This document shows positions 2,508 through 38,100 of a stretch of DNA of 43,665 nt, piece by piece. Origin of the DNA: Parcubacteria group bacterium GW2011_GWA2_40_23 (GTDB lineage Bacteria > Patescibacteriota > Patescibacteriia > UBA11705 > JABHMO01); contig LBYP01000008.1 in assembly GCA_000996245.1 (NCBI GenBank), positions 1 through 43,665 of the forward strand. Reading direction: 5' to 3'. Numbering within the stretch: the stretch's first letter is position 1; each line of letters begins with the position of its first letter. The position numbers and the translations under genes were made by a program. The notes beneath the pieces were generated by a model, which saw only the letters and a list, made by a program, of their open reading frames with translations, was not told the origin of the DNA and did not search any database.

Positions 2508-2539
2508 ACACGTCACCACTCTGAGGAGTAGCGACGTGT
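2508..2539 (-). terminator. Terminator of the 73-aa GC-rich gene
   Basis: Stem acacgtc (2508-2514) with gacgtgt (2533-2539), plus an inner stem actc/gagt (2518-2521 with 2526-2529). On the minus strand it is followed by a U-rich tract (TTTTCTTT). A second small perfect hairpin lies at 2541-2555 (gtgcgt/acgcac). Confidence 0.65.
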
Positions 2540-2558
2540 CGTGCGTATGACGCACAGA

Positions 2559-2780
2559 TCAAGACGAGGGCCAGACCCACTCTTTCGTGAGTCCGAGGAC
2601 AGTGGGCTGGTTGGAGGGCCAACGACCGCCCAGAGCGACGTCGTACGTGCCGACCAAGAACGTGAGGACAGGGGAAAGGAAGTAGACGACAGGCACCATG
2701 ACAGGAGCCGACATGACCTTCGTGGGGAGCAAACTGAGGTTCCTCACGACCCGACAGACTTCAGACTTTTTGACCGGCAT
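2559..2780 (-). CDS. Small hydrophobic protein, unknown, GC-rich cassette
   Basis: A predicted 73-aa protein that I do not recognise. I chose the ATG at 2780 because GGAGG lies 7 nt upstream; an in-frame ATG at 2786 is too close to that site. The N-terminus is basic (MPVKKSEVCRVVRN), residues 22-43 are hydrophobic and could span the membrane once, and the tail is polar with several Trp. Base composition is unlike the neighbours: by my count 2641-2700 is 57% GC. The gene has its own promoter (2835-2863) and terminator (2508-2539), and lies between the rpoD terminator and the end of xthA. An antisense 128-aa frame on the plus strand overlaps it, but has no comparable start signals. Confidence 0.55.
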   Translation of the reverse strand: MPVKKSEVCRVVRNLSLLPTKVMSAPVMVPVVYFLSPVLTFLVGTYDVALGGRWPSNQPTVLGLTKEWVWPSS

Positions 2781-2834
2781 GATCATTCCTCCAAGTTGTG
2801 GACGAGCCCCAAAACACATCAACAGATTATGATG

Positions 2835-2863
2835 AATTTATCATATTTATCAAGGAACGTCAA
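2835..2863 (-). promoter_or_regulatory. Promoter of the 73-aa GC-rich gene
   Basis: TTGACG (2863-2858), 17-bp spacer, TAAATT (2840-2835) preceded by TGA. It lies just after the rpoD terminator and reads toward the small gene. Confidence 0.65.
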
Positions 2864-2867
2864 CAAA

Positions 2868-2894
2868 AAAATCGACCCATATGGGGTCGATTTT
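2868..2894 (-). terminator. Terminator of dnaG-rpoD
   Basis: An 11-bp perfect stem (2868-2878 with 2884-2894, core atcgaccc/gggtcgat) with a 5-nt loop. On the minus strand it is followed by a T run. It sits 17 nt past the rpoD stop. Confidence 0.85.
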
Positions 2895-2910
2895 ATATTG
2901 AACGATCTTA

Positions 2911-4224
2911 TTAGTAGTAATCTCTAAGTTTTTCAATACCAGGAAATTGCTTAACCTTCTCAAGTGACTTAGCTTCAATTTGACGTATACGTTCACGTGT
3001 CACGTCAAATTCTTGGCCTACTTCTTCCAAGGTATGAGAAACACCATCAATCAAGCCAAAACGCATTTCCAAAATCTTTTGTTCACGTGGAGAAAGATCT
3101 TTGATAACTTCCTTGACATAATCCTTTAACAAACGGAGCGCTGCTGAACGATCTGGACCAACATTTTTTACATCTTCGATAAAATCCTCGAGGGTACTAT
3201 CTTCATCATCATCACCCACTGAAGTTTCAAGAGAAACAGTCTCTTGAGAAATTTTCATGATGTATTTAACCTTGGTCACATCTTCTTCCATTTCAGCCGC
3301 AATTTCTTCTGGCAATGGTTCACGTCCTAAATCTTGTATAAGTCGGCGTTCTATTTGATGAAACTTATTAATGGTTTCCACCATGTGCACTGGAATACGA
3401 ATTGTACGCGATTGATCGGCCAGCGCGCGAGTAATCGCTTGTCGTATCCACCAAGTCGCATAAGTCGAAAACTTGTAACCTTTTTTATAATCAAATTTTT
3501 CCACTGCACGGAACAAGCCGATATTGCCTTCTTGAATTAAATCAAGCAGTGAGAGGCTTTTACCAACGAATTTCTTGGCAATCGAAACAACCAAACGCAA
3601 ATTAGCTTCAATTATTTTTTTCTCAGCATCTCTATCTCCATGTTCTTTTCTTTTGGCGAGAGATAATTCTTCTTCTTGTTTCAAAAGAGCAACCTTGCCA
3701 ATCTCACGTAAATACATCTGGATTGAATCAGCTGACAATTCTGGCAATTCAAGCTTTTGTTTTTTACCGGTGTCGCTGCGGGTTGTTGCGCCAACTTCGG
3801 ACAACAACTTTTCGCGTTCTTTACGACGACCGAGCATAGCACCGCGAACTTCGATAACTTTAATTCCCAAACCTTCCAAATCATCTAAAAAATCCTCATA
3901 CACATCCAAATAATCTTCTAAATAAACAAAAACTTGCATTACTTCTTCTTCGGTAATGAAATTTCTAGATCGACCCTTCCCAATTAATTTTTTAATTAAT
4001 TCTGGGACCGGTGGCTCGGCTTTTGGTTGACGCACGAGTGGGACCTTCTTGATTTTGGTTGTAGGACGTTTACCAGAACTCTGTCTGGTTGGTTTTTTAG
4101 CACTTTTTTTTGTGCCGGAAGATGTTTTTTTGTAAACAGCTTTATTGGCTGTTCTTTTTTTAGCAAGAAATTTTGCTAGCTTTTTAATTGTCTTGGAAGC
4201 TGTTGCTCCCTTGGTTCTCGCCAT
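2911..4224 (-). CDS. rpoD: Primary sigma factor RpoD (sigma-70)
   Basis: A 437-aa sigma-70 group 1-type factor. The first ~75 residues are Lys/Thr/Ser-rich and low complexity, replacing an ordinary region 1.1. Region 1.2 begins near [11 protein letters not shown]. Region 2 has the [12 protein letters not shown] and [15 protein letters not shown] blocks (core binding, -10 recognition and melting). Region 3 starts at [12 protein letters not shown]. Region 4 has the [19 protein letters not shown] helix-turn-helix for the -35 element. It follows dnaG by 2 nt, the classic macromolecular-synthesis pairing. The many TTGACA/TATAAT-like promoters in the window are the sites it would read. No Shine-Dalgarno sequence precedes the ATG. 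Confidence 0.97.
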
Positions 4225-4226
4225 AG

Positions 4227-6002: not shown

Positions 6003-6070
6003 ATATTCCAATCTTAACTGAGAGAACAAAGTTTGGCAATTCCAGCAAACCCTCTAATGTAATAATTCGA

Positions 6071-7772: not shown

Positions 7773-7791
7773 ACTGTTAGTCAAGTAATAA

Positions 7792-16302: not shown

Positions 16303-16331
16303 TTGACTTTTAGCCAAATTTATATGAAAAT
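16303..16331 (+). promoter_or_regulatory. Promoter of the phosphatidyltransferase cassette
   Basis: TTGACT (16303-16308), 17-bp spacer, GAAAAT (16326-16331). The -10 box is weak (4 of 6). It predicts a ~25-nt leader before the GGAGG/GTG start. Confidence 0.45.
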
Positions 16332-16362
16332 GAGCAAGTGCGTAAGTAACCGGAGGTTCATC

Positions 16363-16962
16363 GTGTACAATTTCAAGGCTGACTTCAAGAAGGGGCTACT
16401 CCCCAACTGCATCACTTTCGTCGGCGTCTTGATGATCCTGCCCATCATTCTGGCTCGCAGAGCAGGAATGTTTGGGTCATCGCTCTTCTACTTCGTGGTC
16501 GCCTGGTTCTGCGACTGGGCCGATGGTCACTTTGCCCGCAAATTCGTTATGACAAGCAAGATCGGCACCTTCCTTGATCCACTGACAGACAAAGCCTTCA
16601 CCTGGTCAATTCTCATTGACAACTGGCATCGAGTTCCAAAAGAAGCTGCAGTCATCATCATGATAACTGGGTTGCTAGCAACGATTGGCAGAATCATAAT
16701 TCTGATTGCCAACCGCAATCCCGCCGTCAACATCGACATCATGGCTGGAATGGCTGGCAAGTACAAAACCAACTTCGAGAAGAGCGGTCTCGTCGCTCTG
16801 TTACTAGCAGATATCTGCGGCAAGTACATCCACTACGAATGGCTCGTAGACCTGTTCATGTTCATCTCTAAGCTTGGCATTTGGCTCAGCATCCCGCTGG
16901 CCATCATCAGCTTCCTGTCCATCGTCATGAAGCTATACAAAATCTACCACGAACCAGCCTAA
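16363..16962 (+). CDS. CDP-alcohol phosphatidyltransferase (GC-rich cassette)
   Basis: A 199-aa membrane enzyme that joins a CDP-activated lipid to an alcohol, as in phosphatidylglycerophosphate synthase. The full family motif is present: D51-x2-D54-G55-x2-A58-R59-x8-G68-x3-D72-x3-D76. About five or six hydrophobic segments surround it. I chose the GTG at 16363 because GGAGG (16352-16356) lies 6 nt before it; upstream ATGs have no such site and lie before the predicted transcript start. The base composition is foreign to the region (57% GC over 16501-16560 by count). The gene is single, with its own promoter and terminator, and its alcohol substrate is not certain. Confidence 0.85.
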   Translation: MYNFKADFKKGLLPNCITFVGVLMILPIILARRAGMFGSSLFYFVVAWFCDWADGHFARKFVMTSKIGTFLDPLTDKAFTWSILIDNWHRVPKEAAVIIMITGLLATIGRIIILIANRNPAVNIDIMAGMAGKYKTNFEKSGLVALLLADICGKYIHYEWLVDLFMFISKLGIWLSIPLAIISFLSIVMKLYKIYHEPA

Positions 16963-16968
16963 CGAAAA

Positions 16969-17003
16969 CCCCGACGTTTCTAATAACGCCGGGGCATTTT
17001 TTT
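16969..17003 (+). terminator. Terminator of the phosphatidyltransferase gene
   Basis: A 10-bp stem with one mismatch (16969-16978, ccccgacgtt; 16985-16994, aacgccgggg), then a T run to 17003. The opposite strand also shows a short T run, so it may stop transcription both ways; the DsbA-like gene ends 15 nt beyond the stem. Confidence 0.88.
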
Positions 17004-17008: not shown

Positions 17009-17707
17009 TTACTTTAATAAGGCATCGATTGTTTGTTGGAAATTTTCAAATGGTAGCGCCCCGCTAACCAGTTGGCCATTAACGAAAGTCGCTGGAGTTC
17101 CAGTGACACCAGAGGCACCACCTTCAGCCGCGTCAGCTGCTACTTTGTCAGCGTACTTACCAGTATCTAAACAATCATTAAACTCAGTTGTATTCAAGCC
17201 AAAGCCTTTGGCTAGTGATTTCCATTTATCCACACTCATATTCCCCGCCTCATTAGCTTGGAACATAGCATCGGACATTTCAAAAGACTTGCCTTGTTCT
17301 AAGGCACATTCAAATGATTCCGCTGCTTTTTGAGCCTCAGGATGAAAACCTAGAGGGAAATTTCTTAACACATACTTAATCTTATTCCCATAAGTGCTGA
17401 TAATTTGCTTAATAGTATCATGATGCTTTAAGCAATAAGGACATTCAAAATCTGTATATTCGATAATTGTAACTTTAGCGTCTTTTCCTCCCTTGAAAGG
17501 TTCATTCTCTTTAACTCCTACTACTGGCACATAAGTCGGTTCTGCAGCTGGTTGGGTGGTATCAATAGTTGGATTTACTGCTAAATTGGCTTGAGCTGGT
17601 TGATTAAAGACAACAATTAACAATGTGAAAAATGCTACTGTTGATAAGATAGCCATGCCCACAAAGAAACCGAGCAGAAAATTAGTCTTTGGTGTTTGTT
17701 CACTCAT
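17009..17707 (-). CDS. DsbA-like thiol-disulfide oxidoreductase
   Basis: A 232-aa protein with an N-terminal membrane anchor (about 10-34), a Pro/Thr-rich linker, and an extracytoplasmic thioredoxin-fold domain. The redox motif is C89-P-Y-C92 within EYTDFECPYCLKHH, and the cis-Pro loop is GVTGTP (P205). An alpha-helical insert between them is typical of DsbA/DsbG-like proteins of the 'Na+/H+ antiporter-DsbA' type. It would oxidise or isomerise disulfides of exported proteins. No DsbB/VKOR partner is present in the window. It is convergent with the phosphatidyltransferase cassette. Confidence 0.92.
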   Translation of the reverse strand: MSEQTPKTNFLLGFFVGMAILSTVAFFTLLIVVFNQPAQANLAVNPTIDTTQPAAEPTYVPVVGVKENEPFKGGKDAKVTIIEYTDFECPYCLKHHDTIKQIISTYGNKIKYVLRNFPLGFHPEAQKAAESFECALEQGKSFEMSDAMFQANEAGNMSVDKWKSLAKGFGLNTTEFNDCLDTGKYADKVAADAAEGGASGVTGTPATFVNGQLVSGALPFENFQQTIDALLK

Positions 17708-17737
17708 AGAAAAAAGTTATTAATATTTTTATGCTTG

Positions 17738-17772
17738 CCCAGCATTTAAAGGGAACACTTTATAGTGCTGGG
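17738..17772. repeat. Palindrome downstream of the RuBisCO-pathway cluster
   Basis: Outer stem cccagca/tgctggg (17738-17744, 17766-17772) with an inner taaag/cttta stem. The preceding word tgcttgcccagca is shared with the palindrome at 26571-26608. It may help end the AMP phosphorylase transcript, but no T run follows on the minus strand. Confidence 0.55.
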
Positions 17773-17805
17773 CTTAATTTTAACACAGTCAAAAGAGACA
17801 AGCAA

Positions 17806-19302
17806 TTAGCCTATGTGGAAAATTATATTCCTGCCTGCTCCGAGAATACCAAGTTTCAAGCGTTCTTCTGAACTAGCATACATAGTAAAGAGTTTATCAC
17901 CCTTTTTCACTTTTGTCCCATAACGCGCATGGATGTGCATCCCTGCATATTTATCGATTGGTGCGCCTAAATTCATACAAACTTCATTAATAGCTTTATT
18001 ATCAATGAACTTAACTCGGCCACTTTTTTTAGCATGAATTTCATAACGTTGATATTCCTGCATTACTTCCTCTGAGTTCCAATCTTTTTTTCCGCCTTGA
18101 GCAATAATTATCTCATTTAGTTTTTTCCAGGCAGCACCAGAAATAATTTGTTTTTTAGCTATTTCAAATCCCTTGCCCTTTTTGCAATAACCCTTCATCT
18201 CTAAAAGACGTCCAGCTAACTTGCAACCTTTATTCTCAAGATCAATGGGACGGAACTTGTGTTGTTGTACAACCCGGAGAAGATCGCGAGCCTCCAGCGC
18301 CGGCCCCACGCCTTCGCCCACTGGCTCAGTGGCTTTGATAGCCATAATTTCGACTTTCATGCCGAAACGCCTCCCTAAACGTTTGAATTTTTCTTCAATG
18401 ATCTTAGCATCTTTCATTGTTGGAACTTTACAAGAAAGACCAACTGGTACATCAACAATTAAACAATCAACACCCATGGCGACTTTCTTAGCCATGATAC
18501 TGACTATCATTTTATCATAAGATTCTAATGCTAGGGGACGAGAAACTTTAATAATGTGATCATCAGCCGGAGCCATCTTCACGCCACCGCCCCAAACTAA
18601 ACAGGCCTTAGTTTTTTTGACAATCTGTTTAATCGCATCCATCTCAAACGAAACTGGACAAAGCACTTCCATAGTATCAGCTGTACCGGCCGGAGAAGTA
18701 ATAGCGCGCGAAGATGTTTTTGGGATATAAATTCCCAGCGAGGCAATAATCGAAACAATAATTGGTGTAATCCTATTTCCGGCAAGACCTCCAACCGAGT
18801 GTTTATCGACAACTTTTGTCGTTAAATTGAATTGCTCACCAGTTTCTGCCATGGCTTTAGCCACATAATACAGTTCTTGCTCAGAAAATTCTTTTACAAA
18901 ACCACTAGCCGCATAATATGTTGTCATGACTTCACTCAAGCGATTTTCGGAAATATCTTCAATTAAAGCGTAAATTTCTGCATAAGTCGCTGGTTTGCCT
19001 AGCATTTTTTTCTTGATTGTTTCGACAGAAAGCGGACGCGACTCCAAGGAAACCTCAACAATGTCTCCTAATTCGACTTTATGCTTTTGCCAAATCTCTT
19101 CGAATAAACCAATCTCGCCCGATTTAACATGCTTATTGGACACATCAACTGAAGCGATTATTTTTTTTGATTTACTCCAAAGCAAAGAGACGCGGTCGCC
19201 TGGGTGAATTCCGTAATTGTCCGCTTCTTCTTCATTAAACATGGCAACTGGTTGATTCCCTGTTGAAAAATCTAAATTTTTACAGCGTAAAAAATAGGCC
19301 AT
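17806..19302 (-). CDS. deoA: AMP phosphorylase (archaeal-type, DeoA family)
   Basis: A 498-aa nucleoside phosphorylase homologue of the long archaeal type. It is predicted to convert AMP plus phosphate to adenine and ribose-1,5-bisphosphate, the first step of the nucleotide-to-RuBisCO route. The extra N-terminal ~100-residue domain distinguishes AMP phosphorylase from bacterial thymidine phosphorylase. The phosphate/nucleoside site shows KHSVGG (167-172) and SSRAITSPAGTAD (197-209). It is 5 nt downstream of the RuBisCO gene, so the functional link is strong. Activity on CMP or UMP is also known for archaeal members. There is no signal peptide, so it is cytosolic. Confidence 0.93.
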   Translation of the reverse strand: MAYFLRCKNLDFSTGNQPVAMFNEEEADNYGIHPGDRVSLLWSKSKKIIASVDVSNKHVKSGEIGLFEEIWQKHKVELGDIVEVSLESRPLSVETIKKKMLGKPATYAEIYALIEDISENRLSEVMTTYYAASGFVKEFSEQELYYVAKAMAETGEQFNLTTKVVDKHSVGGLAGNRITPIIVSIIASLGIYIPKTSSRAITSPAGTADTMEVLCPVSFEMDAIKQIVKKTKACLVWGGGVKMAPADDHIIKVSRPLALESYDKMIVSIMAKKVAMGVDCLIVDVPVGLSCKVPTMKDAKIIEEKFKRLGRRFGMKVEIMAIKATEPVGEGVGPALEARDLLRVVQQHKFRPIDLENKGCKLAGRLLEMKGYCKKGKGFEIAKKQIISGAAWKKLNEIIIAQGGKKDWNSEEVMQEYQRYEIHAKKSGRVKFIDNKAINEVCMNLGAPIDKYAGMHIHARYGTKVKKGDKLFTMYASSEERLKLGILGAGRNIIFHIG

Positions 19303-19307
19303 ATTAA

Positions 19308-20597
19308 TTATCTTTTATATTTATATTTTACATTATTCCATTGGATAAGCGCTTTGCGTAATTCATCATGATCTTTAGCATAAACAGCCAGCGGAATACC
19401 TTTTTCAACTGCTTCGGCCGCCTGGAAACAACCACGTGCGCCCGCAGCAGAGCCATCCACATGGCCATGAATACCACCGCCAAAGTTGGCAATTAAATCA
19501 GATCCCAACGATTCGACTAACTTCGGCAACAATCCAGGATGCATTCCACCCGAAGCAATGGGCATGGTTGGTTTTATACTTGACCAATCTTCCCTTAAGG
19601 CATGATAATCTCGCCAATCTTCTTGCAAAAGTTGATTGATAGTTAGAACTTCTTCGCGTGTGCCATCCATTTTGCCGACGACTGTGCCGGTATGTAATTG
19701 GTCGACGCCAGCCAGACGTGCAAGCTTGGCTAAGACTAACATGGTGATACCGTGTTTCTCGTATCGTGTAAAAGTACTATGCCCAGCACGATGGCCATGG
19801 ATAATTAAACCTAAATTTTGTTTGCGTAAATATTGGACTGAGTCTAATCCCGTTGAAACAATATCTACCATAACAACTTTTCCGCCTTGCGATTTAACGA
19901 ACTTCGCTCTCTCGAGCATTATGTCTGGTGGAGCAGTAATGTTTGCAGAATATAATTTTACAAGACCGGTTTCTTGTTCAACTTTTTTCAAAGCTTTTAA
20001 AACTTTGCGAACACGTTCTTCAAAATTATTAAAGCTCATGTTGGTTAAATTCTCATCATCCTTAATGAGATCGATTCCATTCCTCCAGACTGCATATGAA
20101 AGTTCTGCTTGTTCGTCAGGATTTAAACCTACTTTTGGTTTAATAATACTACCAAGGATTAAACGCTTTTTTATGCCCGTAATTTTTCTGATTCCCGCTA
20201 AACCGAATGCAGGACCTTGAAAACTATCAATATATTTCTTGGGGAATTCAACATCTAGTAAACGTAAGTGTTTAACAGCCTTCATGGAAAAAATGTTTCC
20301 TCCGACACTAGAAAGAAACTGAGGAATACTGCCCAACTCAAAAAGTGCGAGTGGATAAGCAATTTTCATTATTTTCTTTTTGACATCAATATAAAAAACT
20401 CGAGCCTGAATTTTTTCGGCTACACTTTTTTTCAAAGTCCCCAAATCAGTCCACGAACCGATGGAACTTTCGCCCGCCACAGCATCGGCGACTTCATTAA
20501 AAGCCACGCCAGCGCTTGGTTCAACGTAAAAGGTCGTAATTATTTCTCGATCATATTTCGGTTTATAACCGATTTGTACGAAGCCAATGTGAGCCAT
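19308..20597 (-). CDS. rbcL: RuBisCO large subunit, form III or II/III-like
   Basis: A 429-aa RuBisCO that carboxylates ribulose-1,5-bisphosphate to two 3-phosphoglycerates. Every catalytic element is visible: ESSIGSWT (43-50), N101, K153/K155 in IIKPK, the carbamylated Lys179 with D181 and E182 in IDLIKDDE, H269-R270, H302, loop-6 Lys309 (VVGKMDG), S349-GG and the FGGGIHGH phosphate loop (372-379). It should therefore be a true carboxylase rather than a form IV homologue. Length and context (AMP phosphorylase, R15P isomerase) match the archaeal/CPR AMP pathway. Form III versus II/III needs a tree. No small-subunit gene, phosphoribulokinase or carboxysome gene is present. Confidence 0.95.
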   Translation of the reverse strand: MAHIGFVQIGYKPKYDREIITTFYVEPSAGVAFNEVADAVAGESSIGSWTDLGTLKKSVAEKIQARVFYIDVKKKIMKIAYPLALFELGSIPQFLSSVGGNIFSMKAVKHLRLLDVEFPKKYIDSFQGPAFGLAGIRKITGIKKRLILGSIIKPKVGLNPDEQAELSYAVWRNGIDLIKDDENLTNMSFNNFEERVRKVLKALKKVEQETGLVKLYSANITAPPDIMLERAKFVKSQGGKVVMVDIVSTGLDSVQYLRKQNLGLIIHGHRAGHSTFTRYEKHGITMLVLAKLARLAGVDQLHTGTVVGKMDGTREEVLTINQLLQEDWRDYHALREDWSSIKPTMPIASGGMHPGLLPKLVESLGSDLIANFGGGIHGHVDGSAAGARGCFQAAEAVEKGIPLAVYAKDHDELRKALIQWNNVKYKYKR

Positions 20598-21710: not shown

Positions 21711-23192
21711 TCATAAAAGTTTTTGCTCTTTTTTCAATAAATCCATCTTTTTAACATAATCCTGACGCCTTGCACCGAGTTTACTCTCGACTCCAGCAGG
21801 AGTGATGTCAAACTCCTCGCCGAGATCAACTACATCAACTTTGCATTTTAACTTCAAAATATTATAAATATTGTCACGGAGCACAGCGCATTCATTTTCT
21901 TCACCATGAACGATAAAAATTTGTTCAAGATCTTTTATGTTTCGGATGTAGTCGAGCAACTCAAGTTTATCAGCATGACCAGAGAAAGCATTAAAAACAA
22001 CGACCTCAGCACGCAGCGGAACATCTACTCCAAAAATATTAATTTTATTCTTACCTTCAACAATGTCACGTCCACGAGTACCTTGTGCCATAAAACCAAC
22101 GACCAAAACTAAATTCTTTGGATCGCTAATATTATTCTTTAAATGATGCTTAATGCGCCCGGCATCGCACATGCCAGAAGCGGAAACAATGAAGCAAGGT
22201 CCTTTAAAATTATTGATGGCCTTAGATTCTTCGACGGTTTGAGTATATTTAATTTCTGTGAAATAGAGAGGATTTTCTTTTTTAGATACAAAATCACGAA
22301 AAGTTTCCTTATCATATTGTGCACTGTATTTGTCGAAAACTTTTGAGATGGCAATTGACATAGGACTATCCACGAAAATTGGAATGCGAGGAAGTCTGCC
22401 TTGATTATAAAGCTGATGCAAAATATAGACAATTTCCTGTGTACGTTCAAACGAAAATCCCGGAACAATAATCTTGCCACCACGCTTAACAACATCATTC
22501 ACGGCCGTGCACAGTTCATCAGTAATACTATCAATGGTATCGTGCAAATGGCTGGCATAGGTACTTTCGATAATTAACGTTTGTGCATGGTCAACTTGAT
22601 AAGGATCATTTAAAAGAGGCATGTACTTACGACCCAAATCTCCAGTAAAAACTAAACGACGTTGCTCTTGATCTTTTTCCGTATAATCAATAACTGTTAT
22701 GGCTGACCCTAAAACATGACCTGCATCATAAAAAGTAATCCAAACTCCTTCGGCCAAACGAAATTTCTGCCTATATTCATATGTTTCAATCAGCTGAACT
22801 GCAGCTAGCACATCTTCTTCTGAGTACAAGGGTTCTGGTTTTTTTCCCTTATGTTTTTGGTCATATTCAAAATCTTGCATTTGGATATGGGCTGAATCAC
22901 GCAATAAAACGTCAGCTATCTCCTTTGTCACTGTGGTGCAATAAATCTTACCTTTGAAGCCTTGTTTGACCAAGCGTGGCAACATGCCGACGTGATCGAT
23001 ATGTGCGTGAGAAAGAATAACAATGTCGACTTCTTTTGGATCAAATAAAAAAGTCTCGTTTTGTTTTCGAGCTTCTTCTCTAGACCCACCCTGAACCATA
23101 CCACAATCTAAAAGTATTCTAACGCCGTTTATTTCAACTAAATGTCTGGAACCGGTCACGTTTTGTGTGGCTCCGCAAAATTTTAATTTCAT
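21711..23192 (-). CDS. Beta-CASP metallo-beta-lactamase RNase
   Basis: A 493-aa beta-CASP-family nuclease like archaeal/bacterial CPSF-type RNases. Metal motif 2 is SHAHIDH (61-67), followed by motif 3 in DAGHVLGS and motif 4 GDLGRK. The beta-CASP insert includes SASGMCDAGR (motif B region) and the terminal FSGHADK is motif C. The ~60 C-terminal residues are basic. It should process or degrade RNA. It lies 64 nt upstream of the RuBisCO-pathway genes; cotranscription is possible, without an evident metabolic link. Its upstream region holds repeated GTTACGAAT words and an extended -10 promoter. Confidence 0.9.
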   Translation of the reverse strand: MKLKFCGATQNVTGSRHLVEINGVRILLDCGMVQGGSREEARKQNETFLFDPKEVDIVILSHAHIDHVGMLPRLVKQGFKGKIYCTTVTKEIADVLLRDSAHIQMQDFEYDQKHKGKKPEPLYSEEDVLAAVQLIETYEYRQKFRLAEGVWITFYDAGHVLGSAITVIDYTEKDQEQRRLVFTGDLGRKYMPLLNDPYQVDHAQTLIIESTYASHLHDTIDSITDELCTAVNDVVKRGGKIIVPGFSFERTQEIVYILHQLYNQGRLPRIPIFVDSPMSIAISKVFDKYSAQYDKETFRDFVSKKENPLYFTEIKYTQTVEESKAINNFKGPCFIVSASGMCDAGRIKHHLKNNISDPKNLVLVVGFMAQGTRGRDIVEGKNKINIFGVDVPLRAEVVVFNAFSGHADKLELLDYIRNIKDLEQIFIVHGEENECAVLRDNIYNILKLKCKVDVVDLGEEFDITPAGVESKLGARRQDYVKKMDLLKKEQKLL

Positions 23193-23193
23193 A

Positions 23194-23389
23194 GTTACGA
23201 ATAAAGCTTTTTATTAGGAAGTTATGAATTATCGTTTGGCTGTAATTTGTAACAACAATCGAATGAGACTATACGTAATCATTATAGCAAATTTAGTTAC
23301 GAATAACACCCTTTTGTCACGAATCAGACCATTTATAATGAGGTTACGAATTACCGCTAAGATTTATTTGCTATACAATAATTCGTAAC
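23194..23389. promoter_or_regulatory. Array of GTTACGAAT boxes with an extended -10 promoter
   Basis: GTTACGAAT occurs at 23194, 23296 and 23343, and inverted at 23381-23389. Near copies are GTTATGAAT (23221) and GTCACGAAT (23316). The pair 23343/23389 forms an 11-bp perfect inverted repeat (gttacgaatta...taattcgtaac). On the minus strand TGC-TATAAT (TATAAT 23286-23281) reads toward the beta-CASP RNase; its -35 is poor. The boxes look like operator sites. Confidence 0.5.
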
Positions 23390-23424
23390 TTCACTTGTAT
23401 ATAGCTATTCGCAACAAAAAAAGC

Positions 23425-23451
23425 GCCCCTTCTGTCTGAGAACAGAGGGGC
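23425..23451 (-). terminator. Terminator of the 302-aa GC-rich gene
   Basis: Stem gccccttctgt against acagaggggc (23425-23435 with 23442-23451, one bulged T at 23431). On the minus strand it is followed by a run of seven T. Confidence 0.85.
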
Positions 23452-23460
23452 ACTGAAGGA

Positions 23461-24369
23461 CTAGTTGAACTCGACGATGGGCAGTAGGTAGCTGTCGCTA
23501 CCGCGGTACCCAGGGTAGAGCTGCGACCATTCGACAACGATCGGAGTGTGAAGAAGCTCCTCACTTCCGCTCAGAGGGAAACCAGCCCAATGAACCAGCG
23601 TCCCAGTTCCAATTTCTTTATCAGGAACGACAAGAGAAGCTGGAGTCAACATCTTTCCTGTGAGGAAAAGATGCATAACACTAAAATACACACATTCCTG
23701 GACGGAGGCGAAGCGAACCACGAGGCTTTTACTTCTGAACGAAGTACGCATCTGCTGTTGCAACGATTCGAGGCTCGGCCGCCTGTTATGGGCATAGGGT
23801 GCCAATGAACCTGTGTAGTACAACCGCAAGCCGGTTTGCATTTCGCTCTTTTCGCCATAGAGAGAGCTCAGGTTAGAGCCCCGCATTACGACCGACCTCG
23901 ATTGGCCATCGCCGGCAATCCCTGAAAACGGACTGAACCAGTTCCAATGGAATCCAGCGATCGTGATGCTCGGAAACCATTCACCAGGATCAGTGGCAAG
24001 AAACGTAGACAACCCTCTCTCCTGGTCACCACTCAATTGCAGAAGTGGTGATTTTCTACTAAGTTGCGGGATCCCGTCGAACGTCTGATCGTTCATAACC
24101 GAGGAATCCACTAACTTCAAGAACGTGCGAGCAAAGTTGCGAAACGCGAGAGGCAGGGCGTTGAGGTCGAACTGCGTGCGGTTTCCACCACAGGATGCCA
24201 GGAGTCCAGCCAAGTCATGCGCGGACAAGTGCCGATTCGCCAACATCTGACCCAAGTCCGCAAAGAGCTTGGCGTTGCGCGTAAGCTGGTCGAACGAGGC
24301 AGGTGTGAACGCTGCTTCTTGTTGGAGTAGCTGAACCGCTTGCTGCCAACTGAGCTTAGGTTTGGGCAT
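23461..24369 (-). CDS. Hypothetical 302-aa protein, GC-rich cassette
   Basis: I do not recognise this protein. The start is ATG 24369, with GGAGGG 4-5 nt upstream. Residues 1-100 look helical and Gln/Leu-rich (KLSWQQAVQLLQQEAAF, then a hydrophobic helix with ASCGGN). The remainder is richer in beta-prone segments, Trp, Ser and Gly, including WFPSITIAGFHWNWFSPFSG, and ends LLPIVEFN. No signal peptide, Walker motif, metal cluster or known catalytic triad is evident. It differs from its neighbours in base use (62% GC over 24121-24180 by count), has its own promoter 120 nt upstream and a strong terminator, and separates the AMP pathway from an ABC exporter. Confidence 0.7.
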   Translation of the reverse strand: MPKPKLSWQQAVQLLQQEAAFTPASFDQLTRNAKLFADLGQMLANRHLSAHDLAGLLASCGGNRTQFDLNALPLAFRNFARTFLKLVDSSVMNDQTFDGIPQLSRKSPLLQLSGDQERGLSTFLATDPGEWFPSITIAGFHWNWFSPFSGIAGDGQSRSVVMRGSNLSSLYGEKSEMQTGLRLYYTGSLAPYAHNRRPSLESLQQQMRTSFRSKSLVVRFASVQECVYFSVMHLFLTGKMLTPASLVVPDKEIGTGTLVHWAGFPLSGSEELLHTPIVVEWSQLYPGYRGSDSYLLPIVEFN

Positions 24370-24495
24370 TTTGCCCTCCATGTTAGCCATAACCAGACCA
24401 TAAGCATACGTCGACCAGAATGGCCAAAATACGCCCGTCAGTCCAGCGACGGCAGGTACTAAGACACAGCTGAAAACGCTCCAGCTGATCAAAAG
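24370..24495 (-). promoter_or_regulatory. GC-rich 5' leader of the 302-aa gene
   Basis: If transcription starts about 7 nt after the -10 box at 24496, the leader is about 120 nt, long for this genome and GC-rich. It is open in frame with the gene and hydrophobic if translated, but has no ribosome site before its upstream ATGs. I see no recognised riboswitch. Confidence 0.35.
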
Positions 24496-24524
24496 AGATT
24501 AGCATTTACCTAACAATTCGTCAA
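24496..24524 (-). promoter_or_regulatory. Promoter of the 302-aa gene
   Basis: TTGACG (24524-24519), 17-bp spacer, TAATCT (24501-24496) with an extended TGC. It closely resembles the promoter of the 73-aa cassette (TTGACG-17-TAAATT). Confidence 0.65.
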
Positions 24525-24625
24525 TTAACAAAAAACGACTCCGAAGAGGCGCCATAGACAGAGATCATTAAACAACAAACTCCTTTAATTTGCGAGCAGA
24601 GATGACATTTACCATGAATCCAAAG

Positions 24626-24768
24626 GTCATTGCGAGGGCACTCTGAGTAGCCCGAAGCAATCTCCGAAATCTTAATGATCGTTAACTTATTAATAGATAT
24701 TCAGTAGCAACACAAAACCGTTGAGATATCGGGGATTGCTTCGACCTGTTTCACGGTCTCGCAATGAC
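24626..24768. mobile_element. MITE-like inverted-repeat element
   Basis: A 143-bp non-coding element bounded by gtcattgcgag (24626-24636) and ctcgcaatgac (24758-24768), a perfect 11-bp terminal inverted repeat. Second arms cgaagcaatctc and ggattgcttcg lie inside. Repeats beginning GTCATTGCGAG are widespread as dispersed palindromes in bacterial genomes. No transposase lies within, so it would be non-autonomous. Confidence 0.65.
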
Positions 24769-24792
24769 GATAGACTCGAAACTCGCAAATCG

Positions 24793-33711: not shown

Positions 33712-33721
33712 GCAGCAGACT

Positions 33722-33838: not shown

Positions 33839-33852
33839 GAATTTTGTGTAAT

Positions 33853-33914
33853 AAAAAAAGTAGGGTTGTTCGTAAGGAACAAAAATTTTTGTTCCTTACG
33901 GCCCTACTTTTTTT
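33853..33914 (-). terminator. Terminator of secDF
   Basis: A long hairpin: outer arm aaaaaaagtaggg (33853-33865) with ccctacttttttt (33902-33914), and inner perfect 15-bp arm (33871-33885 with 33886-33900). It overlaps the secF stop codon. The core ggaacaaaaatttttgttcc is shared with the tRNA-Asn terminator. Confidence 0.88.
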
Positions 33915-34803
33915 ATTGTTTTTTTCTATGAGCCAAGATAAGTAAAGGACAAGCGATGAAGATAGAGCTATAAGCTCCGGAGAAAATACCGATAATTAAA
34001 GCTAAAGCAAAGAACTTGATGGTGACACCACCCCAGAAGAAGATAGCGATTAAGGCCAATAAAGTAGTTAAAGTGGTATTTATAGAGCGAGCCAGCGTTT
34101 CGTTTACACTTCTATTAACCAAGTCTGTGAAGCTGATCTTTGAAATACGACCTAAATTTTCTCTGACACGATCAAACACTACGATTGTATCATTAACAGA
34201 ATAACCTAAAACTGTCAGTAAGGCCGCCACAAAAGGTAGACCAACGTCAATACCCATAAATTTGCCCAGAACTGCAAAAACGCCTACTACCAACAAGACA
34301 TCGTGAATCAAGGCTAAAATGGCAAATAGACCGTATTTCCAAGAAGCAACCGGATAAGAAACTTTGCGGAAGGCATAAGCGATATACAGAACAATAGCAA
34401 TCATCGCTAAAATGATTGAATAAAAGGCCTTGGTCTTCAACTCTTTACCAACAGAAGGACCAACTGATTCAAAGCGCTCTTCTTGAAATTTATCTGTATA
34501 CTTGTTTCTTAACTCAGTCACAACATTTTGGTGCATAGCTTCGTCAGCTTTTTGGAAGCGAAAAATAACATTATTGTCTCCAGAATCTTGGACACTAATA
34601 CTATTGTCAATCGACGTAACTACGCTACGAACCTCTTCAATGTTTGGTCGTTCTTGAATAAACTTAATTTCCAATAATCCCCCGCCTGTGAAATCAATAT
34701 TATACTTTAAACCCCAAACAGCAAAGAAAACCAACGCTAAAACTGTAACCACCACTGAAAGTGAAAGCCAGAGCGTTCGGTATTTCATGAAATTAATCGT
34801 CAT
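33913..34803 (-). CDS. secF: Protein translocase subunit SecF
   Basis: A 296-aa membrane subunit of SecDF, which uses the proton gradient to help pull secreted proteins across the membrane. It has a first transmembrane segment (about 9-30), the NIDFTGGGLLEIKF motif at the start of the short periplasmic domain, and a five-helix C-terminal block with VLGYSVNDTIVVFDRVRENL, the SecF signature. Length is normal. It is 25 nt downstream of secD and ends inside the terminator hairpin. Unlike SecD, it carries no inserted domain. Confidence 0.96.
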   Translation of the reverse strand: MTINFMKYRTLWLSLSVVVTVLALVFFAVWGLKYNIDFTGGGLLEIKFIQERPNIEEVRSVVTSIDNSISVQDSGDNNVIFRFQKADEAMHQNVVTELRNKYTDKFQEERFESVGPSVGKELKTKAFYSIILAMIAIVLYIAYAFRKVSYPVASWKYGLFAILALIHDVLLVVGVFAVLGKFMGIDVGLPFVAALLTVLGYSVNDTIVVFDRVRENLGRISKISFTDLVNRSVNETLARSINTTLTTLLALIAIFFWGGVTIKFFALALIIGIFSGAYSSIFIACPLLILAHRKKQ

Positions 34804-34828
34804 ATGTGCTTATTATGTTAATTATTCT

Positions 34829-36856
34829 TTATTCTTTTGTTTCTTTCTTTTTGCCTACACCAAAAAGCCAATGATTTGATTCTGTACTTTTATTTCTAAG
34901 AGTCAAAAGCATAAATTGTTTAGCAATAACAATGGCCGAGAACATACTGATTAAGACACCAATAGTCAAAGTTAGAGCAAAACCTTTAATGGTGCTAGAA
35001 CCAAACCAGAAAAGAATAATACAAGTAATAATAGTTGTGGTATTACCATCACGAATTGATGGCCAAGCTCGTTTGAAACCTTCCTCGATTGAAGTACCGA
35101 GAGGTTTGCCAAGCTTCAATTCTTCTTTCATACGTTCAAAAATAAGGACATTCGCATCCACCGCCATACCAACGGATAGAATAAACCCAGCAATACCGGC
35201 CAAAGTCATAGTAACTGGAACAGCTTTAAATATGAATAGAACTATAATAGCGTAAATCGACAAAGTGATGACTGATAAAACACCGGGTAAACGATAGTAT
35301 AAAATCATCAACAAGATGACTAACAAGAAACCGATTAGACCAGCCTTCATACTTAAGGCAACAGATTCGCCACCCAAACTCGCACCAATAGTTTGTTGAG
35401 AAATCAACTCAATTGGTACTGGTAGAGCACCAGCATTTAATCTTTGTGACAATGTTTTGGCTTCTGTAACAGTAAAATCACCCTCAATGACAGCTTCACC
35501 GTCTTTAATAGCTTCATTAACACGCGGAGCGCTAATCACTTCACCATCAAGGAATATGGCTACTTGCTTATTGACATTACGTTCTGTGATTTCACCAAAA
35601 AGTTTTTTACCTTCATCATTAAATTTTAAAGCGACTAAAGGTAAACTTGTTTGTTGACTAAATTGAATACTCGATGATGACAATTGTTTCCCCGTCAAAC
35701 CGGTAGACTTCCAGTCTTCTTGTGGAGGTAAAACTTCAGCTTCGGTTTTTTTATCGATATAAACTTGTGAAATTCGATATTCAACTACAGGACGTTCATC
35801 CTGTTTTAATATTAAATGATAGCCAAATTCTGTTTCAATCACATCTGAAATTGTTTCTTTGGGCATGCTAAAAACAACATCTTCAAATTCTTTTACCATT
35901 TGGCCTTTAGCAAACCAACCTAAATCACCACCAGAAGTGTCCGCTCCTGGTTCAGTAGAATTTTTCTTAGCCAGGCTAATAAAATTTTCAACAGTCGCCT
36001 TGGTTTTTAAATCTTGAATTTGTTTTAATGCGTCTTCCTTAGTAGTTTCTTTGTCACAACGTGTAGCACCTTTATAGCAGATCAAGATATGATTAGCCTT
36101 AACTTCTGTGCCATCTTCACGTTTATCAGTAACCATGATGACATTATAACTACCTGGTAATTCGATAACTTTGGAATAAACATCGCCCTTACCAATTTCT
36201 TTGGCTTTTGCATACAAAGCCGCATATGCTCCCTTTTCTTTGATCCAACCTATATCGCCGTTAGAAGATTTTTGATCTGTATTTTCTGTATATTCTTGAA
36301 CTAAAGAATTAAAATCTTGACCCTTTTTAGAAGCAGACAAAGCCTTTTCAGCTTTAGCTTTAGCAGCTTTGTTATAAGCTTCCATATCTTTCTTTTCAAC
36401 AGCTGTCATTTCTCGTTTTGGATCTAAGTTCATTTCCTTAAATTCCAAAAGTGGAGTTTCGCCAATCATTTTAATAGCTTCTTTAACATCCTTAACACCC
36501 GCTAATTCGACAATAATACGCCAGTTGCCTTGTGCCTTGTTAATTTGGACTATTGGTTCAGCGACGCCAAAGGCATTAACACGACGTTCAATTACATCGC
36601 GCACACCTTCCATGGCATCAGATTTTTCAGCATCCTTGATTTGTTTAAGGTCAGCTTCGTAAGTAAGTTGAGTGCCTCCCTGTAAATCTAAACCTAATTT
36701 AAAGGGAATTTTATTAAAAAAGGTAACTTCCAGGCCTGTCTTTTGGTTAAACCAATTGACGACTTGAGGAAAATCGAACAGACCTAAAAAAATAGCTAGA
36801 ACCAAGATTAAGACTACTGTGAGTCTTACCTTAGTTGTACGTTTCATTGATGACAT
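34829..36856 (-). CDS. secD: SecD with inserted parvulin (PpiC) domains
   Basis: A 675-aa SecD. The N-terminal transmembrane segment (about 10-27), GLDLQGGTQLTYEA (55-68) and the C-terminal six-helix block are ordinary. Between LLEFKE (about 136-141) and WKSTGLTGK (382-390) lies an insert of some 230 residues. Residues ~252-352 are a complete parvulin-type prolyl isomerase: VKANHILI, SGGDLGWFAKGQMVKEFE and the terminal FGYHLIL. Residues ~165-250 look like a second, partial copy (NGDIGWIKEKGAY, SYNVIMVTDKRE). This would put a foldase at the exit face of the Sec channel. The promoter at 36890 lies back-to-back with that of the zinc-protein genes. Confidence 0.93.
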   Translation of the reverse strand: MSSMKRTTKVRLTVVLILVLAIFLGLFDFPQVVNWFNQKTGLEVTFFNKIPFKLGLDLQGGTQLTYEADLKQIKDAEKSDAMEGVRDVIERRVNAFGVAEPIVQINKAQGNWRIIVELAGVKDVKEAIKMIGETPLLEFKEMNLDPKREMTAVEKKDMEAYNKAAKAKAEKALSASKKGQDFNSLVQEYTENTDQKSSNGDIGWIKEKGAYAALYAKAKEIGKGDVYSKVIELPGSYNVIMVTDKREDGTEVKANHILICYKGATRCDKETTKEDALKQIQDLKTKATVENFISLAKKNSTEPGADTSGGDLGWFAKGQMVKEFEDVVFSMPKETISDVIETEFGYHLILKQDERPVVEYRISQVYIDKKTEAEVLPPQEDWKSTGLTGKQLSSSSIQFSQQTSLPLVALKFNDEGKKLFGEITERNVNKQVAIFLDGEVISAPRVNEAIKDGEAVIEGDFTVTEAKTLSQRLNAGALPVPIELISQQTIGASLGGESVALSMKAGLIGFLLVILLMILYYRLPGVLSVITLSIYAIIVLFIFKAVPVTMTLAGIAGFILSVGMAVDANVLIFERMKEELKLGKPLGTSIEEGFKRAWPSIRDGNTTTIITCIILFWFGSSTIKGFALTLTIGVLISMFSAIVIAKQFMLLTLRNKSTESNHWLFGVGKKKETKE

Positions 36857-36889
36857 AAGAAAGTGTTTCCTTATAGTTAATATGCCATT

Positions 36890-36918
36890 ATTCTACCCTA
36901 AGATTACAGGAATTGCAA
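36890..36918 (-). promoter_or_regulatory. Promoter of secDF
   Basis: TTGCAA (36918-36913), 17-bp spacer, TAGAAT (36895-36890). AAGGA about 10 nt before the secD ATG is a possible weak ribosome site. Confidence 0.7.
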
Positions 36919-36925
36919 TCCACTG

Positions 36926-36954
36926 TTGACAAAAACTAGATTCTATGCTATACT
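36926..36954 (+). promoter_or_regulatory. Strong promoter of the first zinc-protein pair
   Basis: TTGACA (36926-36931), 17-bp spacer, TATACT (36949-36954) with extended TGC. Only 7 bp separate its -35 box from that of the divergent secD promoter. Confidence 0.9.
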
Positions 36955-36996
36955 AAGATGGTAACTTTGTGTACTGAAACCACCCTGGAGGATGAA

Positions 36997-37248
36997 ATGG
37001 CAAGTCTGTTCGACGATCCTGGGCGCATGCCCCCAGACGCACAGCCGTGCGAGTTCCACCCGTGGAGCTCCTCGACAACGCGTCGCGTGTCAGTCAACGG
37101 AGTCATCTGCTACGCAAACGTCTGCGACGAGTGCCACCTGCACGGGGCTCCGGTGGAGTCTCGGATCGACAACGCCGACGAGGCCTACGACGAGGACGGC
37201 TTCGACCCCCGAGACCAAGAAGAATACGCGGCGGAGCGCCGTCTCTAG
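36997..37248 (+). CDS. Small CxxH/CxxC zinc-motif protein 1
   Basis: A predicted 83-aa acidic protein that I cannot assign. The start ATG 36997 has GGAGG (36987-36991) before it; the upstream ATG at 36958 sits at the predicted transcription start and is excluded. C18-x2-H21 and C43-x2-C46 (CEFH...CDECH), 22 residues apart, would bind one zinc. The C-terminal third is Asp/Glu-rich (NADEAYDEDGFDPRDQEEY). It shares its ligand pattern with the next two genes and the first of them is 28 nt downstream in the same transcript. The composition is GC-rich, unlike flanking secD. There is no membrane segment, so it is likely cytosolic. Confidence 0.7.
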   Translation: MASLFDDPGRMPPDAQPCEFHPWSSSTTRRVSVNGVICYANVCDECHLHGAPVESRIDNADEAYDEDGFDPRDQEEYAAERRL

Positions 37249-37276
37249 ATCAACAACACCACCTCGGAGGAACCCC

Positions 37277-37561
37277 ATGTCCGCTCAAACCCACGGCCAC
37301 CCCGAAGTCGCCCCTCGCATGCCGAAGGGCCAGCGTTGCGACCACCACAGCGATCGCCCCGCGGTCGCGCGAGTCCTGAAGGCGTCGGACGGCGACAGCC
37401 GTACCTACGCCGACCTGTGCGAGGAGTGCTACGGCCTGTACCAGGACGACCAGCACCTCGACGAGCTGGCGCGCCTGGTCCAGCCGATCAACGAAGAAGC
37501 GGTCGTGCGCAAGCTCGACGACGCCGCCATCGACCAGTGGTTCGATAGCGTCCCGCACTAG
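37277..37561 (+). CDS. Small CxxH/CxxC zinc-motif protein 2
   Basis: A 94-aa protein, second gene of the cassette. ATG 37277 follows GGAGG by 6 nt. The zinc-type core is C21-x2-H24 (CDHHSDRPAVAR) and C48-x2-C51 (YADLCEECY). HSDRP[AS]VAR recurs in protein 3, and the CEEC half in all three. The tail is acidic, helical and Leu/Asp-rich (QHLDELARLV... AIDQWFDSVPH), possibly a partner-binding helix. GC is 68% over 37381-37440 by count, against about 25% in the spacer 37621-37680. Not a known family to me; a nucleic-acid or protein-binding knuckle is conceivable. Confidence 0.7.
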   Translation: MSAQTHGHPEVAPRMPKGQRCDHHSDRPAVARVLKASDGDSRTYADLCEECYGLYQDDQHLDELARLVQPINEEAVVRKLDDAAIDQWFDSVPH

Positions 37562-37578
37562 ACCGACGCGCAACAACG

Positions 37579-37610
37579 ACGCCCTCCTGCCTCAACAAGC
37601 AGGAGGGCGT
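37579..37610 (+). terminator. Terminator of the zinc-protein pair
   Basis: A perfect 12-bp stem acgccctcctgc/gcaggagggcgt (37579-37590, 37599-37610) with an 8-nt loop; the following T tract is short and broken (tcaattt). It resembles the next terminator (38067-38100) in core sequence. Confidence 0.8.
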
Positions 37611-37640
37611 TCAATTTACAAAAAATATCAATCTAAATCA

Positions 37641-37669
37641 TTGACAACTACTTATAAAAGGTCTGTACT
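37641..37669 (+). promoter_or_regulatory. Promoter of the membrane zinc-motif gene
   Basis: TTGACA (37641-37646), 17-bp spacer, TGTACT (37664-37669). It starts 31 bp after the preceding terminator stem, so this gene is a separate unit. Confidence 0.7.
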
Positions 37670-37722
37670 TAGAGTGTATTGAGGCAGACAATCAACCACA
37701 ACGACCTTGAAAGGAACACATC

Positions 37723-38064
37723 ATGGAACTCTTACTTTACTTTTTCTTTGGCTGGAAGATCACTCTTGCCATATTGTTTAGCCTCTTTCTGCTGTTTATC
37801 CTTTGTGGGTGTTTTATTAAAGACACACGAACAGCAAAAGAAAGAGCATCTTGTACAAGTATCCCCGGGGGGCTGCCGCCTGCTGGCATGGGCTCGCCCA
37901 CAACCTGCGATTTCCACTCAGATCGCCCCAGTGTCGCCCGTATCTGCTGCCAAATAGGCAAGCATCGCTACCGTTGGTACGACATGTGTGAGGAATGTCA
38001 TGAGGGACATCTCAAAAGAAGGTACAGAGAAATGGAAAAGCTCGACATCGATAACGCCAATTGA
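37723..38064 (+). CDS. Membrane-anchored CxxH/CxxC zinc-motif protein 3
   Basis: A 113-aa protein with the same core as proteins 1 and 2: C62-x2-H65 (CDFHSDRPSVAR) and C89-x2-C92 (YDMCEECH). A hydrophobic N-terminal segment (residues 2-32, LLLYFFFGWKITLAILFSLF) should anchor it in the membrane. A Pro/Gly linker with extra Cys (RASCTSIPGGLPPAG) separates anchor and core, and the tail is basic-helical (HLKRRYREMEKL). ATG 37723 follows AAGGA by 7 nt. The 5' part is less GC-rich than the core (68% GC over 37861-37920), as if a membrane anchor had been joined to a family core. The topology is not settled. Confidence 0.7.
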   Translation: MELLLYFFFGWKITLAILFSLFLLFILCGCFIKDTRTAKERASCTSIPGGLPPAGMGSPTTCDFHSDRPSVARICCQIGKHRYRWYDMCEECHEGHLKRRYREMEKLDIDNAN

Positions 38065-38066
38065 AA

Positions 38067-38100
38067 AGCGCCCTCCTACTTCTACAAGTTGGGGGGCGTT
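38067..38100 (+). terminator. Terminator of the membrane zinc-motif gene
   Basis: Stem 38067-38080 with 38087-38100 (left agcgccctcctact) with one mismatch and two G-U pairs, followed by aaattttg. It shares the gccctcct core with the terminator at 37579-37610. Confidence 0.75.

Follow-up and report, generated by a model that had tools for sequence, protein, structure and literature searches.

Analysis of a 43,665-nucleotide contig (LBYP01000008.1, or C8; here called the window) of Parcubacteria group bacterium GW2011_GWA2_40_23, and of further DNA from the same genome (G000; 1,222,335 bases in 37 contigs), revealed two classes of gene. A GC-rich class, sharply bounded and compositionally extreme in this lineage, is frequently led by Shine-Dalgarno (SD) sites and is dispersed among AT-rich genes, here called native, of which few have such sites. 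Five GC-rich cassettes (c1 to c5, Table 1) lie in the window, where a first-pass annotation had described them as a distinct class of genes, either recently acquired from an organism of another translation style or native and under selection for strong autonomous expression. The sampled DNA comprised the window and twenty 20-kb stretches, 443,665 bases in all (36% of the genome), and the GC-rich class (class 1) numbered 81 genes by a codon model and 82 by a third-position GC (GC3) of at least 0.5.

GC3 was bimodal in the sampled genes, with means of about 0.31 and 0.71, and 200-bp windows of the sampled DNA had a second GC mode near 0.54. A two-model gene caller yielded 403 genes, of which 81 (about a fifth) were GC-rich and three had a GC3 of 0.45-0.55. 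The same division was apparent in open reading frames (ORFs) collected without a gene model. GC3 of ORFs of at least 300 aa peaked near 0.30 and 0.60, the 0.50-0.55 bin being empty, and was described better by two Gaussians than by one or three (Bayesian information criterion -418 versus -220 and -409 respectively). The valley was shallower in 329 ORFs of at least 150 aa (10 at GC3 0.45-0.55 and 38 above), and the two modes persisted with the SD sites dividing along with them. The distinct class proposed from the window is therefore borne out genome-wide by the bimodal GC3 and the SD split, and the continuous range of GC and GGAGG sites that would have spoken against it was not found, intermediates being few in both gene sets.

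The classes also differ in codon use and in translation starts. GC at the first, second and third codon positions was 0.577, 0.403 and 0.708 in GC-rich genes and 0.485, 0.339 and 0.309 in native genes; GC-rich genes prefer codons that end in C or G (TTC, for instance, 0.83 versus 0.24), and the GC-rich proteins contain less Lys and Ile and more Arg. GGAGG was present in the SD region of 32/80 GC-rich and 2/321 native starts, and GAGG in 49/80 and 8/321. The gene caller gives SD sites a bonus, and in a control run without it SD matches of at least 5 nt preceded 30/79 GC-rich and 7/310 near-median genes. Among model-free ORFs of at least 150 aa, an SD site was found in 23 of the 42 with a GC3 of at least 0.5 and in 15 of the 287 others (p=2e-14). 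C directly preceded the start codon in 62% of GC-rich genes; in native genes the base there was T in 69%. T immediately 5' of the start codon was recorded in 59-81% of non-SD genes in the samples G000-G005, G008 and G009.

Promoters and terminators were assessed in both classes. A promoter score of at least 10.5 was reached by 37% of 60 unit-first GC-rich genes (1% in shuffles), compared with 10% of 162 unit-first native genes (2%), and terminator-like structures were found 3' of 45/80 GC-rich and 59/320 native genes (shuffles 10% and 7%). Base composition was then compared in units for which a promoter (24 GC-rich, 32 native) or a terminator (45 and 64) had been recognised. GC of the 5' leader, purine runs excluded, was 0.464 in GC-rich and 0.292 in native units, and between stop codon and hairpin it was 0.475 and 0.281. 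Upstream of the -35 box it was 0.353 and 0.357, and past the terminator 0.354 and 0.359, as in native spacers. The composition boundaries of the GC-rich class thus coincide with the ends of transcription units, and the foreign composition beyond the genes that was sought as a mark of recent import was not seen.

The GC-rich genes form 48 separate runs, mostly single genes or short series, and 37 of these are flanked on both sides by native genes within the stretch. An assembly chimera or contamination, of which the first-pass annotation had warned, or a gene-calling artefact is therefore most improbable. The assembly is in 37 contigs, with 99.76% completeness and 1.49% contamination, and among the short class-1 calls there are some false ORFs, including one that overlaps a tRNA; against this, the class is visible without a gene model and has syntenic counterparts in independent assemblies. 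Proximity to tRNA genes was weak, 11 of 12 tRNAs lying within 2 kb of GC-rich genes compared with 62% of 173 gaps (p=0.025), with the tRNAs partly clustered. At L008:5273-8649 an array of small GC-rich genes, some mutually related, has a tRNA-Trp gene on one side and tRNA-Gly/tRNA-Leu genes on the other. The sampled DNA, about a third of the genome, contains two tRNA-Trp (CCA) genes (L008:5073-5148 and L020:12445-12518), and both adjoin GC-rich genes.

To assess how widely the arrangement is spread, 190 genomes of the same taxonomic class were scanned for the pattern TTGAC-N18-TANNNT-leader-GGAGG-ATG, which carries no information on terminators or GC. It was found in 173 of them, with a median of 7 occurrences and 0 or 1 for the reversed control pattern; there were 26 in G000, 21-77 in the other four genomes of its family and 121 in G008. 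The plan also occurs in GC-rich genomes, where ORFs behind the pattern had a GC3 of 0.75-0.88 (L199, L202 and L204). The named collection supplied 58 loci of at least 10 kb with 822 genes, among which there were 32 GC3 outliers (+0.15 or more), about half with an SD match of at least 5 nt compared with 7% of near-median genes; examples were seen outside the window's family. The link between SD sites and GC in these pooled loci was due to the outliers, the medians being barely apart (0.009 versus 0.000, p=0.004). The GC3 outliers of one locus, L095, appear to be wrong-frame ORFs. Bimodality as strong as that of G000 was seen in none of the samples from outside this genome, all of them partial.

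A single or recent import of GC-rich DNA from beyond the phylum, the first idea considered, would account for the composition, the codon use, the C before the start codon and a GGAGG that fits the organism's own 16S tail imperfectly. It is weakened because the pattern is present in 173/190 genomes and because c2 is syntenic in two sister genera; further, the composition boundaries are those of transcription units, and the best matches to c2 are from its own family in a search confined to the taxonomic class. We consider such an import unlikely.

Inheritance was examined in samples of four relatives from sister genera, G001, G002, G003 and G004 (59, 519, 364 and 351 kb), with genes called as for G000. 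Reciprocal best hits were obtained for 6/82 GC-rich genes (9 pairs) and 151/321 native genes (246 pairs). Five of the six GC-rich genes, and six of the nine pairs, were syntenic (native 74%), and the relative's gene had an SD site in 7/9 GC-rich and 20/246 native pairs. The counterparts of the GC-rich genes were 28-44% identical, and their GC3 was on average +0.03 from the median of their own genome. Median GC3 of SD genes and of the rest was 0.347 and 0.279 in G002, 0.539 and 0.501 in G003, and 0.496 and 0.450 in G004; in G001 (49 genes) the difference was not significant.

One such case is c2. The same three native genes adjoin it in G000, G002 and G003, in the same order, with 57-73% identity (blastp) and a GC3 of 0.30-0.34, while the neighbours on the other side differ; the GC3 of c2 itself is 0.69 in G000, 0.31 in G002 and 0.53 in G003. 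Matches to the c2 and c4 proteins were sought in 285 genomes, all within the taxonomic class. Matches to c2 with an E value of 1e-10 or better were present in 10 of these, the best besides itself being the syntenic genes of G003 (44%) and G002 (35%) and a gene of G273 (37%). G004 has one more, weaker match of the CDP-alcohol transferase kind (25%, E 1e-7); it showed neither a good SD site nor a cassette and may be a paralogue. Comparison of L012 with G002 and of L019 with G004 gave the same picture, and in the latter a second GC-rich gene was matched in position by an SD gene with no detectable similarity. A few GC-rich genes thus keep their position in sister genera although they are not GC-rich there, and a simple recent import therefore fails to explain all of them.

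The positions themselves also recur. In non-operon slots between conserved native genes, the relative had an SD gene in 12/20 cases if G000 had a cassette and in 6/45 if it had none (p=2e-4), the same G000 loci being reused against several relatives in these slot counts as in the pair counts above; collapsed to distinct slots, the figures were 11/13 and 6/33. Some cassette slots were empty or held unrelated SD genes in relatives, and in two of them the anchors of a relative enclose no called gene.

Slots of this kind may be hotspots, and the cassettes may be exchanged among Patescibacteria, this lineage having lately taken nearly all of its own, including replacements in the same slot, from GC-rich members with the same plan. 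We regard such turnover as a plausible account, if the less probable one. It is consistent with a plan that is class-wide and extends to GC-rich genomes, with the scarcity of reciprocal hits in sister genera and of Pfam families (19 versus 97, see below), with the spread of GC3 within the class, and with SD-led relatives of the c4 proteins in G091 and G007, from other families. Against it, c2 has no GC-rich close relative among the 285 genomes (best 44%), no foreign composition is found just beyond promoter and terminator, and independent replacement in the same slot for 5/6 testable genes is less parsimonious.

Maintenance in place is preferred over horizontal replacement. Since the syntenic counterparts, 28-44% identical, mostly have a GC close to that of their host, the GC-richness appears to have been made or kept in place rather than to be the fading trace of an import; at such identity synonymous sites should be saturated, so that a GC3 of 0.6-0.9 would be no passive trace of an import before the split, and would have been maintained or the copies replaced. 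The GC-rich genes would then form an accessory class that is resident and evolves fast, with its transcripts kept GC-rich in this lineage, a reading that we weigh about evenly against all others together. Native genes are AT-rich, with A/T-rich leaders, T just 5' of ATG and mostly no SD site. Set amid their operons, the second class consists of self-contained accessory units, each with a sigma-70-type promoter, a short leader, GGAGG or GAGG, one or a few genes and a terminator, that turn over fast yet come back in the same slots. The transcribed interval is GC-rich in this lineage, most likely through selection on the transcripts, and SD-led initiation would allow a ribosome whose usual starts are on AT-rich leaders to translate GC-rich messages. 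The two classes, their boundaries, the class-wide plan and the synteny of a few genes are solid observations; from them we infer both the maintenance in place and the selection.

Several observations weigh against this account. Amino-acid composition and GC at the first and second codon positions are shifted too, as in the DNA of a GC-rich genome, and GC3 is over-dispersed within the class (standard deviation 0.092 versus 0.033 binomial; native 0.042 versus 0.029), as it would be with several sources. Within the class, neither promoter score nor SD length nor gene length was correlated with GC3. In the mean of all class-1 genes, GC is somewhat raised (0.39-0.47) at 60-200 nt from their starts and stops, which probably stems from adjoining class-1 genes. 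Two counterparts in G002 have a high GC by the standard of that genome (89th and 91st percentile); support for the c2 tree is weak, and in it G273, of another family, nests with G002; and the syntenic gene of L013 (DksA/TraR-like by eye) aligned over 47-60 residues and was syntenic in one of three relatives. Finally, 76/82 GC-rich genes, compared with 170/321 native genes, had no reciprocal hit in these partial samples, and import is therefore possible for most of the class. Of the two origins first proposed, recent acquisition is thus disfavoured for the few testable genes, because their counterparts are near host GC and the plan is common to the taxonomic class; a native origin, under selection for strong autonomous expression, appears to fit the sequences better.

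The locations of the cassette features are shown in Table 1. The composition jumps reported in the first-pass annotation were present at all five cassettes: GC in 400-bp windows was 0.52 at 2401-2800, 0.51 at 16401-16800, 0.51-0.54 over 23401-24400 and 0.66 at 37001-37600, and the fifth jump was weaker than claimed (0.45-0.47 in windows of 37601-38200). Inspection by eye agreed with the ribosome sites of that annotation (GGAGG in c1, c2, c3 and both c4 genes, AAGGA in c5) and with its terminators, a hairpin followed by a T run being visible at every cassette. Its promoters fared less evenly. TTGAC(A/G/T) with a 17-bp spacer was visible in all five, but several -10 boxes were poor (c2 GAAAAT; c3 TAATCT, 3/6 matches; c5 TGTACT), and in a promoter scan covering c1-c4 the proposed pair scored high for c4 alone, other pairs being picked for c1, c2 and c3 (scores 10, 9.5 and 8.5). 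The c3 start behind GGAGG is most likely correct, the caller's start at 24390 having no SD site; the c3 GC3 of 0.61 was computed for the frame 23461-24390. GC3 climbs along c5 (0.46, 0.54 and 0.57 by thirds).

Table 1. Positions in the window of the five cassettes, their signals and the native genes adjoining c2
Feature	Position	Strand	Basis
c1 whole cassette	2505..2863	-	sequence read
c1 -35 TTGACG; -10 TAAATT	2858-2863; 2835-2840	-	by eye; scan preferred another pair
c1 SD GGAGG	2788-2792	-	gene calling
c1 ORF, 73 aa, GC3 0.77	2559-2780	-	gene calling
c1 terminator, hairpin and T run	about 2505-2537	-	by eye
c2 whole cassette	16303..17003	+	sequence read
c2 -35 TTGACT; weak -10 GAAAAT	16303-16308; 16326-16331	+	by eye
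c2 SD GGAGGT	16352-16357	+	by eye
c2 ORF, GTG start, 199 aa, GC3 0.69	16363-16962	+	gene calling
c2 terminator	about 16969-17003	+	by eye
Three native genes adjoining c2 (dsbA-like, deoA, rbcL in the first-pass annotation)	17009..20597	-	blastp
c3 whole cassette	23420..24524	-	sequence read
c3 -35 TTGACG; poor -10 TAATCT	24519-24524; 24496-24501	-	by eye
c3 SD GGAGG	24375-24379	-	by eye
c3 ORF, 302 aa	23461-24369	-	start chosen for GGAGG
c3 terminator	about 23420-23453	-	by eye
c4 whole cassette, two genes	36926..37617	+	sequence read
c4 -35 TTGACA; -10 TATACT	36926-36931; 36949-36954	+	promoter score 11.5
c4 gene 1 SD GGAGG	36987-36991	+	
c4 gene 1 ORF, 83 aa, GC3 0.78	36997-37248	+	
c4 gene 2 SD GGAGG	37266-37270	+	
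c4 gene 2 ORF, 94 aa, GC3 0.88	37277-37561	+	
c4 terminator	about 37581-37617	+	by eye
c5 whole cassette	37641..38105	+	sequence read
c5 -35 TTGACA; -10 TGTACT	37641-37646; 37664-37669	+	by eye
c5 SD AAGGA	37711-37715	+	by eye
c5 ORF, 113 aa, GC3 0.52	37723-38064	+	missed by gene caller
c5 terminator	about 38068-38105	+	by eye

The c1 protein is membrane-like in appearance, as judged by eye. The c2 protein is a cytidine diphosphate (CDP)-alcohol phosphatidyltransferase (Pfam PF01066, E 1.8e-18); in NCBIfam its pgsA match was below the cut-off. The longer frame of c3 had no Pfam match, c3 had no sequence match in PDB, and its structure model was too poor for use (predicted local distance difference test score, pLDDT, 34). 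Inspection by eye around c3 (23190-23420 and 24600-24790) also showed, to one side, a GTTACGAAT-like motif in several copies and, to the other, a repeat of the CATTGCGAGG/CGAAGCAATCTC type. The three small proteins encoded by c4 and c5 are related and carry a CxxH...CxxC motif, from which they are predicted to be probably zinc-binding; c5 has a hydrophobic N-terminal segment followed by this domain and matches both c4 proteins. The c4 proteins had no Pfam match, and weak matches to the c4/c5 proteins were found in 5 other genomes of the 285, two of them readable as SD-led ORFs with Cys pairs. A partial model of the second c4 protein (pLDDT 60) suggests a beta-hairpin and a helix near the Cys/His pairs, and its best match in a fold search of PDB had an E value of 0.38. 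The native 675-aa protein adjoining c4 (rpoD in the first-pass annotation) has among its best named matches Buchananbacteria, Uhrbacteria, Magasanikbacteria and Falkowbacteria; its own genome may be omitted there. Elsewhere in the window, a group I intron at 294-538 (- strand) matched its Rfam model over the full length (80 bits).

The proteins of the class were compared as an alignment of 82 rows, the 81 codon-model proteins with c5 added by hand; the c1 protein entered the profile scans (Pfam, PHROG, PADLOC and NCBIfam) solely as one of these rows. At most 20 of the 82 had a Pfam match, to 19 families, compared with 97 families over 81 length-matched native proteins. As a set, the families matched included orotidylate decarboxylase, orotate phosphoribosyltransferase, phosphoribosyl pyrophosphate synthetase, methionine adenosyltransferase (PF01941), tryptophan-tRNA ligase and nicotinamidase. 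None of the 21 PHROG families matched had a structural name, and most are unnamed. One row gave a viperin-like radical S-adenosylmethionine match (PADLOC pVip, E 2.5e-8). A defence role for the class was rejected, just four PADLOC models (two viperin, one ZorA and one BilD) each matching 1/82 proteins.

The 16S tail of this organism is unusual. One 16S was found in G000, with its tail at G000:C5:66899-66951 (- strand); the 3' end is ...GGAAACAACTCCTTTCT, and the anti-SD core is ACUCC rather than CCUCC. Tails were readable in 138 of the 190 genomes, with 120 CCTCC, 6 ACTCC, 7 TCTCC and 5 others. The six ACTCC genomes comprise four of the window's family (all of its readable genomes, from five) and two of family f27, and UCUCC was present in 5/5 readable genomes of family f12 (eight in all), one of which also has a canonical tail. 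Two 16S tails with different anti-SD cores are present on contigs C7 and C32 of G131, representing contamination or two rRNA types. Because the family tail is ACUCC, the last G of GGAGG faces an A. GGAG pairs with CUCC of the organism's own tail, and the next base was G in 32/37 class-1 GGAG sites (p=2.5e-14). The fully matching GGAGT was rarer in the window's family, with 15 occurrences to 222 of GGAGG (168 to 977 in canonical genomes). The idea that SD sites follow their own 16S tail was not upheld, as GGAGT showed no enrichment in genomes with an ACUCC tail. Pairing of the GGAG core may be enough, or else the SD sites took shape elsewhere; in the reading preferred here, SD function would be through the GGAG core.

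Genomes whose anti-SD core is altered at its first C had higher cassette counts, with medians of 23.5 in the 6 ACUCC genomes, 44 in the 7 UCUCC genomes and 7 in the 120 canonical genomes (p=0.001). These high counts belong to families f1 and f12, and the altered-tail genomes of f27, f17 and f40 have 2-9; the tail change is therefore not claimed as the cause. Era is reported to recognise two sequences of the 16S tail, GAUCA and CCUCC, and to have been lost in most of the Candidate Phyla Radiation (PMC10582724), and such a loss here would be a possible reason for the anti-SD drift.

Comparable arrangements are known. Phage morons are autonomous cargo genes with their own promoter and terminator and a deviating composition. 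The cassettes resemble them as self-contained transcription units of deviating GC with accessory cargo: promoters and terminators are commoner than in shuffles and in native genes, without being found at every gene, and composition is unlike that of the flanks. They differ in forming 48 runs in a 36% sample of a chromosome, in having several syntenic counterparts in sister genera and in a GC boundary that is the transcription unit. With genomic islands and other horizontally acquired genes they share deviating composition, accessory content and a weak enrichment near tRNA genes, whereas they are mostly single genes or short runs with flanks that are not foreign-looking, a class-wide plan and syntenic counterparts mostly near host GC. 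Integron gene cassettes are promoterless, in contrast to the promoter-enriched units described here. Bacteroidetes have SD-poor genomes in which most genes lack an SD site and start regions are relaxed and A/T-biased (PMC5397173), much as in the native genes here, where the SD minority is in contrast a compositionally separate accessory class; and grass genes are bimodal in GC (PMC4684703), giving two GC modes in one genome, while here the genome is bacterial and the modes coincide with start style and transcription-unit ends. Among the matches listed in a literature search, which covered open-access titles and the beginnings of abstracts, with most subscription journals and preprints outside it, there was no report of such a gene class or of an ACUCC anti-SD change in Patescibacteria.

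Deviating GC is a usual mark by which imported genes are called. As the GC-deviant fifth of the genes sampled here includes members with syntenic, mostly GC-normal counterparts, a call of import made from GC can mislead. The split in start style gives a way into the question of how accessory genes are kept and expressed in Patescibacteria, most of whose genes are without SD sites in most of these samples, and the altered 16S tail of this family permits a direct test of SD action with a changed anti-SD core. It is tentatively conceivable, and rather doubtful, that two expression regimes coexist: a vertically kept accessory class, SD-led and with transcripts actively held GC-rich from start to terminator, and an SD-less core, on a ribosome with a drifted anti-SD. 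Were this so, the accessory genome would be one translation-style regulon.

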